Below the pieces are notes generated by a model, which saw only the letters and a program-made list of their open reading frames with translations, did not search any database and was not told where the DNA came from. Shown one piece after another: positions 2,588 to 9,427 of a stretch of 34,683 bases of DNA. The stretch is from a virus, in the IMG/VR virus record IMGVR_UViG_3300044712_002649, positions 1 through 34,683 of that record. One strand, given 5' to 3'. Made by a program: the position numbers and the translations under genes. The first letter of the stretch is position 1. Each line of letters begins with the position of its first letter.

Positions 2588-5500
2588 ATGACGATCATAG
2601 ATGACATCAAAACACGGATTGACCTGGTAGACCTGATCCAACAGGATGCGACGGTGCGGCTGCGCAAGAGCGGCAAGAACTGGACAGGGTTCTGCCCGTT
2701 TCACAGCAACACCCACACGCCTGCGCTGATCGTTTTTCCTGACACCCAAACGTGGCATTGCTTCTCCTGCCATGTTGGAGGGACGCAAATCGACTGGATG
2801 CTTCAGAAGAACAAAGGCTGGGACGTGAAAGAAGCTATCCGAGAGTTGGCGCGGATTGGGCAGATCCCCATGGGTGATGTAGACGGTCCCGAATTGAAGC
2901 AACGGTTGGCGGTGCGTGCTCGGGAAGATGCGCTGACGATAGCCGCTCGCATATTTTCGCAATGGCTGCTTGGCAAAAAGGATGAAAAGGGGAATGTGGT
3001 TTATGGTCCTGACGAAGAAGCGCTGGCCTACGCTCGCTCACGCGGGTGGAACGATGAAACGATTGCCGCCTCTCGGTTGGGATTTAGCGGGCGGGCTACT
3101 GCTGCTCAGGTGGCAGAGATGCGCGGCGAGTTCGACCTGAACGGCATCAAGCACGATTCCCCCGAAGCGGTGATGATCCTGGGCTACAAGGGCAACGTGG
3201 CAAAGTGGGCACAGGCTCATGGAATTGATCCACGATCATTCAAAGAGACGCACGTCCACGGGATGATGGAAAAGCCTGGGATAGTCTACGCGCACAAACT
3301 GAACGGGCGGATTGCGTACCTTTCGCGGAGGCAGTTGCCAGGTCATGACATGATCAAGGATTTTGAAACAGGCCAGGAACGAGAATGGAAATCGTTCAAT
3401 GGTTATGCCAGCCTGGCAGGGGAGAAGGTCCCGTTTTTCAATCACATGCATTTGCGAGACCGCTCGCGGATCGTGATCGTGGAAGGCCAGGGCGATGCCA
3501 TCACGCTTGGACAGTGGGGCATTCCAGCAATGGCGCTGTGCGGATCATCCTGGAAGAACCTGGATGAATATATTCAGGTCTTGACCGCCAAGGATAGCAA
3601 CGGCGAACCGAAGTATGAATCGATCTATTTCGCCACGGATGCAGACACGCCAGGCGAGGCGGTGGTGACGGGAACGGGGCAGGATAAGGACAAATTTCCG
3701 CTGACTACTGCTTTTGGGCCGATGCTGTGGGTGGCGCGCTGGCCGAAGTTCAAGTGGACGCGGCCTGATGGCCATCAAAAGGTCAGTAAAGACGCGAACG
3801 ATCTGGCGATGTATCACCAGGACGAGAAGATCGAGCCGCTACTGCAAGAGTCGAACGTTAAGAACGTTTTCGACAAAGCGGAACCGATCGTGCTGATTGC
3901 ATCTCAATGGGCAGGTCGCAAACAGGGAGCGGAACGCAACAAGATGTTGGAGATCGTGTTGCCGTTGATCGCTCGGATGCCAACGAATGCCAGGAATGAT
4001 TATCGGCTGAAGCTGGCGAAGGCGTTATATCCCGAAGATCTGTTCCCTGAATATAAAGGCGCGCCGCTTCGCCCGTTCACGAAATTGATCGGGGATGAGT
4101 TGAAGGACAAGAAGGGCGAGGACGACAAGCCCGTCGAGATCGAGGAGACGATTGGCGGTTGGTATCCCGTGAATGACGAGGGCACCGAGGGATACCTGAT
4201 CGAGATGATGTACGACACGAAAAATGGCAAGGCGAATTTTGCCTACGCTCACATCTGGTTCAACGGTAAGGTGACACGCGAGATCGGGACCGCCAATTTC
4301 CTGGACATCAATGGGATGCGATATGTGCCGATGATCGATGACAACATCCGTTATGGGACGGTGCGCCTGCCAGATATGCTGGGCGAGAAACGATCCATTC
4401 GGGAATTACTGGCGGAGATCAGGCTGTTCGTTGATCGGTATTTCGTCCTGGACAATTCGATCCACGCCATTCAGTTGGCACTCTACGCAGTGTTCACATG
4501 GGTCTACGATGCATTCCCCTATCTGCCTTATCTGAGCGCACGCGGCGGGCCTGGAAGCGGCAAGAGCGAGTTGATGCTGCTGATCGGGCGAGTGTGCTAC
4601 CGCATGATGACCACGGCAGGGCTGACGAGTATCGCAGGCTTCAAGGGCATGGCTCATATTTACAAGGGCACGCTCTTGATCGACGAGGTGGATCGAGCGA
4701 TGAAGGGAGGAAACAAGGACGACCGCGGCGAGCTGCAGGCGCTGCTGAACGTGCGAGCGATGAAGGAACAGGCTCGCATTGTGACGATGATGGATGTGCT
4801 CAAGGCAGATGGAACGCATACATTCAGACCGACTACCACGTTCGTTTATGGACCGACCCTGCTGACGGGATACAAGCCATTCACAGACCCCGCCACCGAG
4901 AGCCGCTGCCTGCCATTTAGCTTGTTCAAGCGAGACGTGAAGGATCTGCTGGCTCACAATCCACCTATTGAACCAGGTGTGATCCCGCCGCAGTTGGAGG
5001 ATGAAGCACGACAGTTGACGAACAAGCTGCTGTTCTTCAGGCTCAACACCTGGCTGCCGCGTATCGAAGTGGAACCGAACGTACATTTGACCGATCCGCG
5101 GGTGAGCGCACGCATGAACCAGGTGATGCGTCCGCTGAAGGTGTTGGCACATTTACAAGGCGATAAGGATCTGATGGCGGATCTGAACATGGTGGCCGAG
5201 ATCAACTTCGAGATGGAACAGGGCAGGGAGAGTGAGTCATTCGAGGCGATGGTGTTCCGCGCAGTAATCGCAGCGGATGAGGATGAGGAATTCGCCAAGT
5301 ATGTTCAGAATGGAAAGTTGGGCAAGTTCGGGCCTTGCCGTTACATACTGGCAAAAGACCTGGCCATGATCGTGAACACGATCATGGATACAGAGAATTT
5401 CGGGGACGGCACCCAGCGGAAGAAGGATGAAGGGGTGACGAGCAAGACGGTAACGAGCTATTGTCGGGATCTGTTCCGATTGCCAACGGAGCGCAGCGGC

Positions 5501-5623
5501 TCGAAGGGCGGCGGTGTGGGGATCGTGCTGGACGCCGAGAAGATCGCCGCTGGCAAGTTCCGCTTTGGTATCGAGGATAAGAAACCCGAGCCTGAGCCAA
5601 AACAACTGGAGATGAATTCATGA
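2588..5623 (+). CDS. Phage primase-helicase (CHC2 zinc finger, Toprim, P-loop ATPase)
   Basis: This 1011-aa protein combines an RNA primase and a replicative ATPase. The N-terminus carries a CHC2 zinc finger (C36, H39, C58, C61). A Toprim domain follows, with glutamate E299 in a VEGQGD context and the acidic pair D351/D353. The C-terminal half has a Walker A GGPGSGKS (653-660) and a Walker B LLIDEVD (D699/E700), consistent with a helicase-like ATPase. A TTG at 2576 is in frame, but the ATG at 2588 gives a DnaG-like N-terminus and has GGACGG upstream. It probably acts at the adjacent repeat array. The exact helicase subfamily is not resolved by eye. Confidence 0.9.
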   Translation: MTIIDDIKTRIDLVDLIQQDATVRLRKSGKNWTGFCPFHSNTHTPALIVFPDTQTWHCFSCHVGGTQIDWMLQKNKGWDVKEAIRELARIGQIPMGDVDGPELKQRLAVRAREDALTIAARIFSQWLLGKKDEKGNVVYGPDEEALAYARSRGWNDETIAASRLGFSGRATAAQVAEMRGEFDLNGIKHDSPEAVMILGYKGNVAKWAQAHGIDPRSFKETHVHGMMEKPGIVYAHKLNGRIAYLSRRQLPGHDMIKDFETGQEREWKSFNGYASLAGEKVPFFNHMHLRDRSRIVIVEGQGDAITLGQWGIPAMALCGSSWKNLDEYIQVLTAKDSNGEPKYESIYFATDADTPGEAVVTGTGQDKDKFPLTTAFGPMLWVARWPKFKWTRPDGHQKVSKDANDLAMYHQDEKIEPLLQESNVKNVFDKAEPIVLIASQWAGRKQGAERNKMLEIVLPLIARMPTNARNDYRLKLAKALYPEDLFPEYKGAPLRPFTKLIGDELKDKKGEDDKPVEIEETIGGWYPVNDEGTEGYLIEMMYDTKNGKANFAYAHIWFNGKVTREIGTANFLDINGMRYVPMIDDNIRYGTVRLPDMLGEKRSIRELLAEIRLFVDRYFVLDNSIHAIQLALYAVFTWVYDAFPYLPYLSARGGPGSGKSELMLLIGRVCYRMMTTAGLTSIAGFKGMAHIYKGTLLIDEVDRAMKGGNKDDRGELQALLNVRAMKEQARIVTMMDVLKADGTHTFRPTTTFVYGPTLLTGYKPFTDPATESRCLPFSLFKRDVKDLLAHNPPIEPGVIPPQLEDEARQLTNKLLFFRLNTWLPRIEVEPNVHLTDPRVSARMNQVMRPLKVLAHLQGDKDLMADLNMVAEINFEMEQGRESESFEAMVFRAVIAADEDEEFAKYVQNGKLGKFGPCRYILAKDLAMIVNTIMDTENFGDGTQRKKDEGVTSKTVTSYCRDLFRLPTERSGSKGGGVGIVLDAEKIAAGKFRFGIEDKKPEPEPKQLEMNS

Positions 5624-5906
5624 GGATCATGAGGATGTATGAGGCAAAAACGGTGTACGGGGGGAGGAATTTGTTTTGTGTGGCTGAAACCACTACAAAA
5701 CAAATTTCAAAGGGTATTTTCCCCAAAAACACCCTCATATTCCCTCATGACCCTCATGTTTTTGTAATTGTCTGACAAGTTTAGCGGAAAACATGAGGTT
5801 CATGAGGATGTATGAGGATACATAAATTAAAGGTTTTTATTTGCTTTGCAGTATTGGACGGCGCGGCCGCCCGAAAAACATGAGGCAAGTATGAGGATGT
5901 ATGAGG
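5620..5906 (+). repeat. Iteron-like array: four triplets of ATGAGG; candidate origin/operator
   Basis: Twelve ATGAGG boxes occur in four clusters of three. Forward clusters have boxes at 5620/5629/5639, 5793/5802/5812 and 5880/5891/5901. An inverted cluster has CCTCAT at 5733, 5743 and 5752. In three clusters the spacing is exactly 9 then 10 bp in the direction of the box, so all boxes face one side of the helix; the fourth is 11 then 10. The inverted cluster and the third cluster are symmetric around TTGTCTGACAA at 5768-5778. An AT-rich stretch (about 5817-5850) lies between the third and fourth. Position after the primase-helicase and before a putative DNA-binding gene fits a replication origin or a cooperative operator. 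The first cluster overlaps the primase stop codon. Confidence 0.7.
5668..5706 (+). other. Long hairpin within the repeat array
   Basis: The arm AATTTGTTTTGTGTGG (5668-5683) pairs with CCACTACAAAACAAATT (5690-5706). This gives 16 base pairs with a single bulged base and a 6-nt loop (CTGAAA). A second, weaker hairpin follows (AGGGT 5711-5715 with ACCCT 5731-5735, plus TTTT/AAAA inside). No T-run follows the first stem, so it is not a typical terminator. It could be an extruded cruciform or single-strand initiation structure of an origin, or an RNA element. Confidence 0.5.
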
Positions 5907-5918
5907 AAGAAGGCTGAT

Positions 5919-6431
5919 ATGACGAAAAAAGACGAACGGAAATCTCACCTGATTGATGCGATCCTGGCGTGCTGGAAGATTTGGGGACGGTGCGGGTCGC
6001 CGATGGAGTTGATGCAGTTGACGGATTTTTCCTATCACTCGATTTACAACTACCTTGTGGAGTTGGATCGGGAGGGGATTGTCAGCGGGTACGCGGATGG
6101 GGCGAAGAAGGTGCGCGTGGTGGCGGGGGGACGTCCTTCAGCGGAGATGCTGGATAAGGTGAGGGCGGGAGTGAAGCCGCTGCGGTATTCGGATATTTTT
6201 CCTTCCCAGCGCGGGATGGAGACGGGGATGCGGCGCGGGATGTACCGTCCGCGGCGGGAGAAGCGGAAAACGGTCAAGGCGGTGACGGCGGCGGTGGGGC
6301 CGAATCCGAAGGCTCAGGTGTGGGGCGACGGTTGGTATTTACGTCGAGATTATGTGCAGACGGCGGTCAGCGAGCAACGGTCAGATAGTGATCGGAGATC
6401 GTCGGTTAGCGATCAGCAAGAAGGAGGCTGA
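5919..6431 (+). CDS. Putative winged-helix DNA-binding protein
   Basis: This protein of about 170 residues has a basic N-terminus and a helix-turn-helix-like region at roughly residues 28-60, followed by a GYADGAKKVRVV strand pair that could be the wing. The central part is strongly basic (residues 100-125, many R and K). The ATG at 5919 has AAGAAGG upstream; an ATG at 5901 is in frame but lies inside an iteron box. The fourth iteron cluster covers the translation-initiation region, so the protein may bind the array and control its own synthesis. The last 25 residues come from degenerate 7-nt repeats. Initiator or regulator roles are both possible. Confidence 0.6.
   Translation: MTKKDERKSHLIDAILACWKIWGRCGSPMELMQLTDFSYHSIYNYLVELDREGIVSGYADGAKKVRVVAGGRPSAEMLDKVRAGVKPLRYSDIFPSQRGMETGMRRGMYRPRREKRKTVKAVTAAVGPNPKAQVWGDGWYLRRDYVQTAVSEQRSDSDRRSSVSDQQEGG
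6364..6419 (+). repeat. Degenerate heptanucleotide repeat in a gene 3' end
   Basis: From 6364 the sequence breaks into 7-nt units such as CGGTCAG (twice), TCGGAGA, TCGTCGG, TTAGCGA and TCAGCAA. It encodes the low-complexity Ser/Arg/Asp/Gln tail of the winged-helix protein. The period is not a multiple of three, which argues for a DNA-level repeat that entered the coding end rather than a protein repeat. Confidence 0.4.
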
Positions 6432-6432
6432 A

Positions 6433-7245
6433 ATGTTTGATGAACCTAGGAACTGGAAATGGATGACGCCGAGCGGGGCGACGGTGGTGCTGTTGGTGGC
6501 GTGGATGCAGACGGCGGCGTGGATGGGGCAGTGGTCGCTGATCTGGATCGGGTTGGCGGGGGTGTGCGCGGTGGCGGGGATCGCTAACCTGGTGCTGTAT
6601 GTGCGTCACCACGGGGCGAGCGCGACGGAGCGGATTTTGGTGGCTCGAAGCGTGACGCCGCAGGTGCGGATCGCGGAGGCGTTTCAGAAGATGCACCCTG
6701 AAGCGCAGGCATATTATGCCCATCATCAGCGGATCGTGTGGCGCTATAAGTATTTGCCTACGGTGGATTTGGTGGATTATGTGCTGGATGAAATCCCCAG
6801 CGTGCACATGTCGTTTGTGGCGTTCCTGTTGGAGAACAGTACGTCCAGGTCGCTGATGCCGATCTCGATGGCCAGCGAGGGTGCGTATATGTTTGACCCG
6901 TCGAAGACGGTGACGGACCGCCAGCAATATAACGATTTTGTGCTGTGGTTGCAGGCGCACATGATGGCGACGCAGGCATTTGGCAATCAGTCCGCGGCGT
7001 GGTTCCCGCCCTACGGGCCTGAGATGCTGCGTCATCGATTTGGGCTGGATGTGGAGGAGGGGACGGGTGAGTTGGGGAAGGTGGCGGAGCGCGCGGAGGC
7101 GTGGAAGGCGGAGAAGATTGAAAGTCAAAAGTCGAAGGTCGAAGGTCGAAAGGCGGATGACTCCATTCCTGAGTTGACGGAGGAGGAGGTGCGGGCGCAC
7201 GAGGCGGTGCGGTATCAGTATGATGCGATGCACGGAAATAAATGA
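6433..7245 (+). CDS. Two-helix membrane-anchored hypothetical protein
   Basis: The start at 6433 is preceded by AAGGAGG, giving 270 residues. Two hydrophobic segments (about 15-33 and 36-57) form an N-terminal hairpin. The remaining 210 residues are soluble, with aromatic-rich helical sequence and a charged, repeat-derived tail from about residue 220. I do not recognise the family. With the next gene it forms a membrane-protein block upstream of the actin-like ATPase, so it might anchor phage DNA or the filament; this is speculation. Confidence 0.65.
   Translation: MFDEPRNWKWMTPSGATVVLLVAWMQTAAWMGQWSLIWIGLAGVCAVAGIANLVLYVRHHGASATERILVARSVTPQVRIAEAFQKMHPEAQAYYAHHQRIVWRYKYLPTVDLVDYVLDEIPSVHMSFVAFLLENSTSRSLMPISMASEGAYMFDPSKTVTDRQQYNDFVLWLQAHMMATQAFGNQSAAWFPPYGPEMLRHRFGLDVEEGTGELGKVAERAEAWKAEKIESQKSKVEGRKADDSIPELTEEEVRAHEAVRYQYDAMHGNK
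7121..7155 (+). repeat. Five tandem heptanucleotide units
   Basis: Consecutive units AAAGTCA, AAAGTCG, AAGGTCG, AAGGTCG and AAAGGCG form a 7-nt tandem repeat inside the C-terminal coding part of the membrane protein. It resembles short tandem heptanucleotide repeats that occur between genes of some bacteria, notably cyanobacteria and, as I recall, Chloroflexota. It encodes a Lys/Ser/Glu-rich tail, so it is tolerated in the protein. Confidence 0.55.
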
Positions 7246-8097: not shown

Positions 8098-9084
8098 ATG
8101 ACTATCAAATTCGGTTTGGATATGGGGCAGAGTTCGTTGAAGCTGGTGGGGGCGGCGGGCGGGTTGGCGTTCCCTTCGCAGACGGCGTTGTTTGCGCGGG
8201 ATGTGCAGGATTTCGGCGCGGGCGGTAAGCGCAAGAAACCTGTGATCGTGGAAGGGGAGTTCGGGAAGTTGTGGGTGGGGCACAATGCCCACGTCTATGG
8301 CGACGCGGTGGAGAATATGAGCTATGAGCGCCTGAGCGAGAGCAGCGAGATCAAGGCCGTGTTCTGCGGGGCGTGGACGGAGTGGATGAACCGCAACGGC
8401 GCCATCGCTGAACCTGTGCGGCTGGTGATCGGCCTGCCGTTTGAGATGCTGTACGGGGATCGGGCGACCGTGACCAGGTTCCGCAACTCTCTGAACGGGT
8501 GGATGGTGGGGACGCATTCGTGGATCGCAAACGGGAAACCGTATCAGGTCCAGGTGGAGGCGATCTATCCGTATCCGCAGGCGTTGGGCGCGCCGATCGA
8601 TTATGCGGTGACGATGGACGGTCAGAGCGCGGGTGCGGAGTTCGAGCAGGTGCTGGCGCGGGAGTGCGGGACGATTTCCATCGGATCGAAAACGGTGGAA
8701 TTACTGGTCAACAAGCGCAACGAGAGCACGCACAAGTTCAACGCGGGGAAGCCGATTGGCGTGCGGCGTTTGTGGAAGCGTCTAGACCCGAGCGGGCGGT
8801 ATACGTTCGGGGAGTTCTGCGAGGCGCTGGAATCCAATGACCTGCCGATGGATTGGGACGTGGACGCGCACCTGGACTCGTGGATGGAGGAAATCCGCGG
8901 GTACGTGAACGATGTGTGGGGCGATGCGTACCAGCGTTTCCATAAGGTCTTCATGGTGGGCGGCGGGGCGATCCTGTTGCAGAACCGTTTGAAGAAGAAG
9001 TTCAACGGGAAGGCGGTGTTTGTGAGTGATCCTGTGATGAGCATCGGGCGCGGGATGTTCAAGGCGGGGTTTGCGATCAAGTAG
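8098..9084 (+). CDS. Actin/ParM-like ATPase
   Basis: This 328-aa protein has the actin-ATPase fold signatures in order: phosphate-1 loop GLDMGQSSLKL with D8, a LVIGLPFEML strand near residue 103-112, a phosphate-2-like ISIGSKT at 193-199, and the adenosine motif MVGGGA near 285-290. The family includes plasmid-segregating ParM/Alp filaments and phage-encoded actins that position viral DNA. The phosphate-2 loop normally begins with aspartate (D-x-G), and here that position is serine (S194), so nucleotide hydrolysis may be altered. AAAGGAG at 8084-8090 sets the start. Downstream small basic genes could be its adaptor. A plasmid-like prophage state is a reasonable inference. Confidence 0.85.
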   Translation: MTIKFGLDMGQSSLKLVGAAGGLAFPSQTALFARDVQDFGAGGKRKKPVIVEGEFGKLWVGHNAHVYGDAVENMSYERLSESSEIKAVFCGAWTEWMNRNGAIAEPVRLVIGLPFEMLYGDRATVTRFRNSLNGWMVGTHSWIANGKPYQVQVEAIYPYPQALGAPIDYAVTMDGQSAGAEFEQVLARECGTISIGSKTVELLVNKRNESTHKFNAGKPIGVRRLWKRLDPSGRYTFGEFCEALESNDLPMDWDVDAHLDSWMEEIRGYVNDVWGDAYQRFHKVFMVGGGAILLQNRLKKKFNGKAVFVSDPVMSIGRGMFKAGFAIK

Positions 9085-9163: not shown

Positions 9164-9427
9164 ATGCCAAGAAAAAAAGATGCAATCAAGAGCGAGCGCA
9201 TCCGCTGGGATGGGAACAGGAAGCGCGGGGTGAGCGAACGGTATGACCGTGTGTTCGCCTGGAACGATGCGAATGGGGGGGATAAGTTTGGCGCGGTGTG
9301 GGAACTGGTGGCTTCGGCGCTGGCAGGGGAGTTGGGGAGCGCGGTGCAGGAGGCTGTCAGTTCGGGCGATACGGTCAAAACCATGGAGGCACTGGGCGAT
9401 CTGCTCGGCGCTTTTGGTGATGAATAA
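9164..9427 (+). CDS. Small protein downstream of actin-like ATPase; possible adaptor
   Basis: This 87-aa protein has a strongly basic N-terminus (residues 3-30), a helical middle part and an acidic C-terminus. GTGAGGA precedes the ATG. In plasmid systems the gene after parM encodes the small DNA-binding adaptor ParR, and this gene has the right position, size and charge layout. I see no clear ribbon-helix-helix signature, so the ParR analogy is inference only. Confidence 0.6.
   Translation: MPRKKDAIKSERIRWDGNRKRGVSERYDRVFAWNDANGGDKFGAVWELVASALAGELGSAVQEAVSSGDTVKTMEALGDLLGAFGDE

Follow-up and report, generated by a model that had tools for sequence, protein, structure and literature searches.

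In SaPIs and PICIs, the origin directly follows the Rep gene on its 3' side and has sets of iterons flanking an AT-rich region (PMC6092414), and it is the C-terminal domain of Rep that recognises the origin (PMC6092414, PMC7581432). SaPI primases are AEP-type (PMC7581432). In the case of SCCmec, the gene of the helicase Cch2 is immediately followed by a 23-bp site with three iterons, to which the isolated C-terminal domain of the protein binds (PMC7581432), and in the crenarchaeal plasmid pRN1 the origin lies just downstream of the gene for the multifunctional replication protein (PMC4234260).

Here, we describe an array of short boxes in a virus record of 34,683 bp (the window, meaning the whole stretch of DNA that was analysed). 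We consider it about 80% probable that this array, at 5620-5906, is a phage replication origin of the iteron type, bound by the primase-helicase encoded upstream via its C-terminal winged-helix domain. Like the PICI and SaPI origins, the array is found directly 3' of a helicase gene, in the window as well as in its relatives, and it places short iteron sets around an AT-rich stretch; unlike them, it goes with a DnaG-type (CHC2/TOPRIM) primase fusion instead of the AEP-type primase of SaPIs, and it is built from four ordered triplets, one of which is inverted. In contrast to a PICI, the 34.7-kb record is that of a tailed phage with its own terminase and portal, not a satellite, and only its origin is PICI-like. 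Cch2, a D5/SaPI5-Rep-like helicase with AAGTG iterons, resembles the window helicase in arrangement, not in any demonstrated protein sequence homology: the triplet measures 23 bp there and 25 bp here, and AAGTG/TAGTG boxes occur in one relative of the window (L136), whereas SCCmec has a single triplet, compared with four in the window, and a separate polymerase-type primase. With pRN1, the window shares the position just downstream of the replication gene, but the pRN1 origin is a stem-loop without iterons. A further likely parallel is the alpha protein of satellite phage P4, in which a TOPRIM primase, a helicase and a C-terminal winged-helix origin-binding domain are combined, and whose type I iterons occur in both orientations at ori and crr, two sites that are separated from each other; no significant sequence match to P4 was found.

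Layout of the box array

ATGAGG occurs 16 times in the window, which is fewer than the mean of 20 in shuffles, and 12 of these 16 copies are packed into 287 bp (5620-5906) as four triplets. The features of the locus are as follows:

2588-5623, plus strand: primase-helicase gene, proposed initiator; CHC2 zinc finger/TOPRIM primase fused to an AAA+ helicase, with a predicted C-terminal winged helix
5219-5620, plus strand: predicted C-terminal winged-helix domain, residues 878-1011 (AF2 model ma5c340214bad)
5441-5473, plus strand: predicted recognition helix, residues 952-962 (AF2 model)
5620-5644, plus strand: cluster A, three ATGAGG boxes at 5620, 5629 and 5639, spacing 9,10; overlaps the primase stop codon
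5668-5706, no strand: inverted repeat AATTTGTTTTGT / ACAAAACAAATT (also given as ATTTGTTTTGT/ACAAAACAAAT), between clusters A and B
5733-5757, minus strand: cluster B, three inverted ATGAGG boxes at 5733, 5743 and 5752, spacing 10,9 on the plus strand
5768-5778, no strand: palindrome TTGTCTGACAA, between clusters B and C
5793-5817, plus strand: cluster C, three ATGAGG boxes at 5793, 5802 and 5812, spacing 9,10
5818-5847, no strand: AT-rich stretch ATACATAAATTAAAGGTTTTTATTTGCTTT, between clusters C and D; proposed melting site
5880-5906, plus strand: cluster D, three ATGAGG boxes at 5880, 5891 and 5901, spacing 11,10; the last box overlaps the ATG of ORF 5901-6431

The motif count confirmed the original prediction of 12 boxes in four clusters of three, at exactly the positions claimed, as well as a 9-then-10 spacing in three clusters, one of them inverted (cluster B reads 9,10 on its own strand), the fourth cluster being 11,10. 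That this order exceeds chance was also borne out: the commonest 6-mer reached a mean of 3.3 and a maximum of 8 copies in 2,000 dinucleotide shuffles of the array stretch, compared with 12 in the real sequence, and in a scan of the whole record in steps of 20, all segments listed with at least nine copies of any 6-mer overlap the array. Two further claims held in part. The boxes of a triplet lie on one helix face only approximately, 9 and 10 bp each being about one turn, and the proposed mirroring of clusters B and C about TTGTCTGACAA is correct in that the palindrome is present and near the axis, but the axis, at about 5775 (arms 5733-5762 and 5788-5817), does not fall exactly on it.

Relatives of the array and the elements between its clusters

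Relatives were sought by scanning viral contigs for ATGAGG triplets, then by searching viral contigs, and subsequently genome contigs, with a primase alignment. The triplet scan yielded at least two viral contigs (L029 and L067) whose four triplets, ordered as in the window, lie behind primases 70-73% identical to that of the window, and the primase alignment led to ten viral-contig loci, including these two contigs, in which the array follows the gene. Thus, as the origin proposal had called for, the triplet clusters are kept in relatives, and the A(+) B(-) C(+) D layout recurs 3' of the genes for primase homologues, both in other viral contigs and in Chloroflexota MAGs. Single-protein searches with the window primase or actin returned no relatives, which were found by alignment- and pattern-based searches; likewise, a first scan of genome contigs with primase alignment A4 returned none and one with alignment A6 gave matches. 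The array region had no DNA match in the phage collection, and the examined parts of the virus Rctr41k, which encodes a homologous actin and a fragment of a primase, revealed no comparable array. Because most of the genome contigs with a related primase belong to Chloroflexota MAGs (Anaerolineae, Anaerolineales), the host group is probably Chloroflexota; two of the genome contigs (L158 and L159) carry arrays of an RTGAAC type.

Multi-triplet matches in three other contigs (L031, L064 and L084) were rejected, being mostly direct repeats of 9-bp period over open frames without the array layout. In addition, ATGAGGG triplets in both orientations were seen in a prophage-like contig of 64% GC (L066:1000-1600), beside a D5_N/DUF5906/Pox_D5 helicase gene, and TGAGGAT triplets in both orientations in another (L078:4390-4660), beside a BT4734-like/PriCT/DUF5906 primase-helicase gene, which suggests that boxes of the ATGAGG kind recur with D5/DUF5906-type helicases in at least these two other phage contigs.

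In the eight close relatives, boxes are spaced 9/10 in clusters A and C, 10/9 in B and 11/10 in D, with some A clusters at 9/9, 10/9 or 8/9 (in L131, some degenerate boxes escape the motif count). The gaps between successive clusters are 93-94 or 103, 41-42 or 52-53, and 68-69 or 78-79 bp, so that appreciable differences amount to 9-12 bp, about one helical turn, which reads as helical phasing and not as a codon period. This bears on the idea that the boxes are not DNA sites but the trace of a small conserved peptide (MR.MR.YE...). Short ORFs do cross part of the array in several phages, but their frames and lengths vary, one cluster is inverted, and the coding explanation is largely refuted, and in our view hardly credible, because the 9-11 bp gap differences, together with box spacings of 9, 10 and 11, break the frame. 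The 9/10 spacing of cluster C persists in the distant L134, L135 and L158, whereas cluster D in these three and in L006 is + 22 - 10 -, compared with + 11 + 10 + in the window, with similar turns and strands that are partly opposite.

The elements between the clusters are conserved to different depths. The inverted repeat at 5668-5706 (DNA fold z -5.2) is near-invariant in alignments of close relatives, with a loop of variable length, and gives way to A/T runs in L134, L135 and L158. TTGTC(T/A)GACAA or close variants of the palindrome are present in several relatives, including the distant L006, but missing from L130 and L132, although both keep the array; we take this palindrome to resemble operators of the GntR/FadR type. 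Finally, the AT-rich core of 5818-5847 is conserved in alignments of close relatives. This 30-mer belongs to the least stable 0.02% of 30-mers in the window, and the corresponding C-D stretches of L128, L129 and L130 rank among the lowest 0.01-0.04% of their loci, those of other relatives being less extreme.

No DnaA boxes were detected in the window array, and they formed no pattern in close relatives. The GC-skew check at the arrays showed no step consistent across the window and its relatives, and hence gave no independent support for an origin. The origin that was originally proposed as one of two roles for the array is nevertheless well supported by comparison, namely by the position 3' of the primase-helicase gene, the conserved layout, the coherent change of the boxes and the unstable AT-rich stretch; the array is most likely the start site of genome copying because its layout is kept in relatives even when the box sequence changes.

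Box switching and candidate readers of the boxes

ATGAGG boxes are found in six phages, including L130 with one ATGAAG, while L131 and L137 have predominantly ATGAAG boxes, L134, L135, L006 and L158 have boxes of the RTGAAC type, and those of L136 contain AGTG. The type I iteron of P4, presumably GGTGAACA, would resemble the RTGAAC boxes of L134 and L006; its sequence was not found in the open literature. Because the primases of L131 and L137 are not mutual nearest neighbours, the distribution suggests two independent switches to ATGAAG. The simplest cause of such coherent change of the boxes within an array would be a single trans-acting reader.

The only window genes present in all 11 array-bearing contigs are those for the primase-helicase, TerS and TerL. 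A terminase recognition site (cos/pac) with boxes bound by the small terminase is thus compatible with this shared gene set, but we consider it very unlikely: some 9 kb lie between the array and the window's terminase genes, the array adjoins the primase gene everywhere, and divergence of the boxes does not follow TerS or TerL once the primase is controlled for. In partial Mantel tests on 12 genomes, in which the box of each genome was the dominant word read from its array, box distance correlated with primase distance given TerL (r 0.67, p 0.0014) and given TerS (r 0.71, p 0.0018), although physical linkage in mosaic genomes could partly underlie this correlation; given the primase, partial r was 0.05 for TerS (p 0.36) and -0.02 for TerL.

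The second role originally suggested was that of a cooperative operator, at which a repressor or autoregulator on the clusters would control the genes from 5901 onwards. ORF 5901 starts right at cluster D, and helix-phased repeats with inverted clusters would suit DNA looping. An operator is unlikely, however, because the downstream genes are not conserved, the gene after the array differing from genome to genome, and because no sigma-70-like promoter was found, bearing in mind that Chloroflexota promoters may differ; moreover, no repressor gene is common to all array-bearing contigs. ORF 5901/5919-6431 has no homologue in any of the 11 array-bearing contigs, and the expectation that the binder is encoded at 5919 was therefore not supported. 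A search for close relatives with ORF 5919 gave a single weak match of 53 residues (L004), inside an unrelated gene without an array. Should the primase itself be the autoregulator, this would agree with the origin reading.

Iteron clusters are also typical of parC/tubC-like centromeres, and the window encodes the two proteins of a putative phage actin-type segregation module with a ParR-like adaptor:

8098-9084: ParM/Alp-like actin (Pfam ALP_N 8.5e-10; PHROG partition protein 8.6e-17)
9164-9427: ParR-like small protein, resembling small proteins behind other phages' actins

Nonetheless, that the array is the centromere bound by this adaptor is improbable, and judging from gene content we reject it, because the pair is missing from three array-bearing contigs (G003, G004 and G008, the last of which was searched over its whole 48 kb, have no detectable actin) and distant in another (in G012, the actin is far from the array). 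Pairs of an actin and a small ParR-like protein are also present in L130, L135 and L006, and may form a segregation-like module with a centromere other than the array. The window actin had no match in plasmids.

The primase-helicase and a proposed route to initiation

The primase-helicase consists of 1,011 residues, and its assignment as a primase is based on a Pfam match to Zn_ribbon_DnaG (3.2e-21), a weak Toprim match and a PHROG match to DNA primase (1.8e-27); no Pfam matches to D5_N, DUF5906 or DUF927 were obtained. In the AF2 model of the C-terminal half, an AAA+ domain is followed by a winged-helix topology, and Foldseek matched this half to the helicase region of the phage NrS-1 PrimPol, staphylococcal PriRep1 with DNA, vaccinia D5, MCM, ORC and SV40 LTag, with E-values of 3e-6 to about 2e-4 and low TM-scores. 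When the C-terminal 134 residues were modelled alone, the same topology (helix-strand-helix-helix-strand-strand) was obtained with a mean pLDDT of 76, and the winged helix is thus a prediction from the topology of a moderate-confidence model; on its own, this domain had only weak Foldseek matches in the PDB (E >0.1), including the winged helices of ORC1 and forkhead proteins, and it had no Pfam match. The VIA-align rows are mostly MCM AAA+ domains and are not informative on the winged helix. When residues were compared between ATGAGG and ATGAAG specificities, two of five shared private residues were located in the predicted recognition helix, a count that control pairs equal, and no residue change in this helix was found that cleanly explains the difference.

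In the proposed model, the primase-helicase produced from the gene directly upstream would use its C-terminal winged-helix domain to bind the ATGAGG boxes, and several subunits would sit next to one another on each triplet, whose boxes are roughly one helical turn apart. At the four turn-phased triplets, one of them inverted, helicase rings would then start to form around the AT-rich stretch (5818-5847); this stretch would melt, and the fused DnaG-type primase would subsequently prime synthesis. Binding by the winged-helix domain, the order of assembly, melting and initiation are all steps that we infer.

What distinguishes the array from these known origins is its association with a DnaG-type primase fusion, its layout of four ordered triplets, one of them inverted, its phasing by helical turns and the coherent switching of its boxes. 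More tentatively, the array might represent an undescribed class of tailed-phage origin, in which four helix-phased triplets, one inverted, seat opposing helicase rings and the boxes switch with the initiator (ATGAGG, ATGAAG, RTGAAC, AGTG). If so, box switching would generate mutually exclusive origins among related Chloroflexota phages, a replication-level identity code. The origin reading itself would give Chloroflexota phages a specific origin together with a specific initiator, and the natural variants, with equal geometry and different boxes, form a set in which to study origin recognition and opening by a self-loading primase-helicase, as well as joint change in initiator and origin. The spacing within triplets and the one-turn steps between clusters also lead to testable predictions on ring assembly. 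Elsewhere in the window, a GAAAGTC-type tandem repeat is located at 7113-7152, within ORF 6352-7245.
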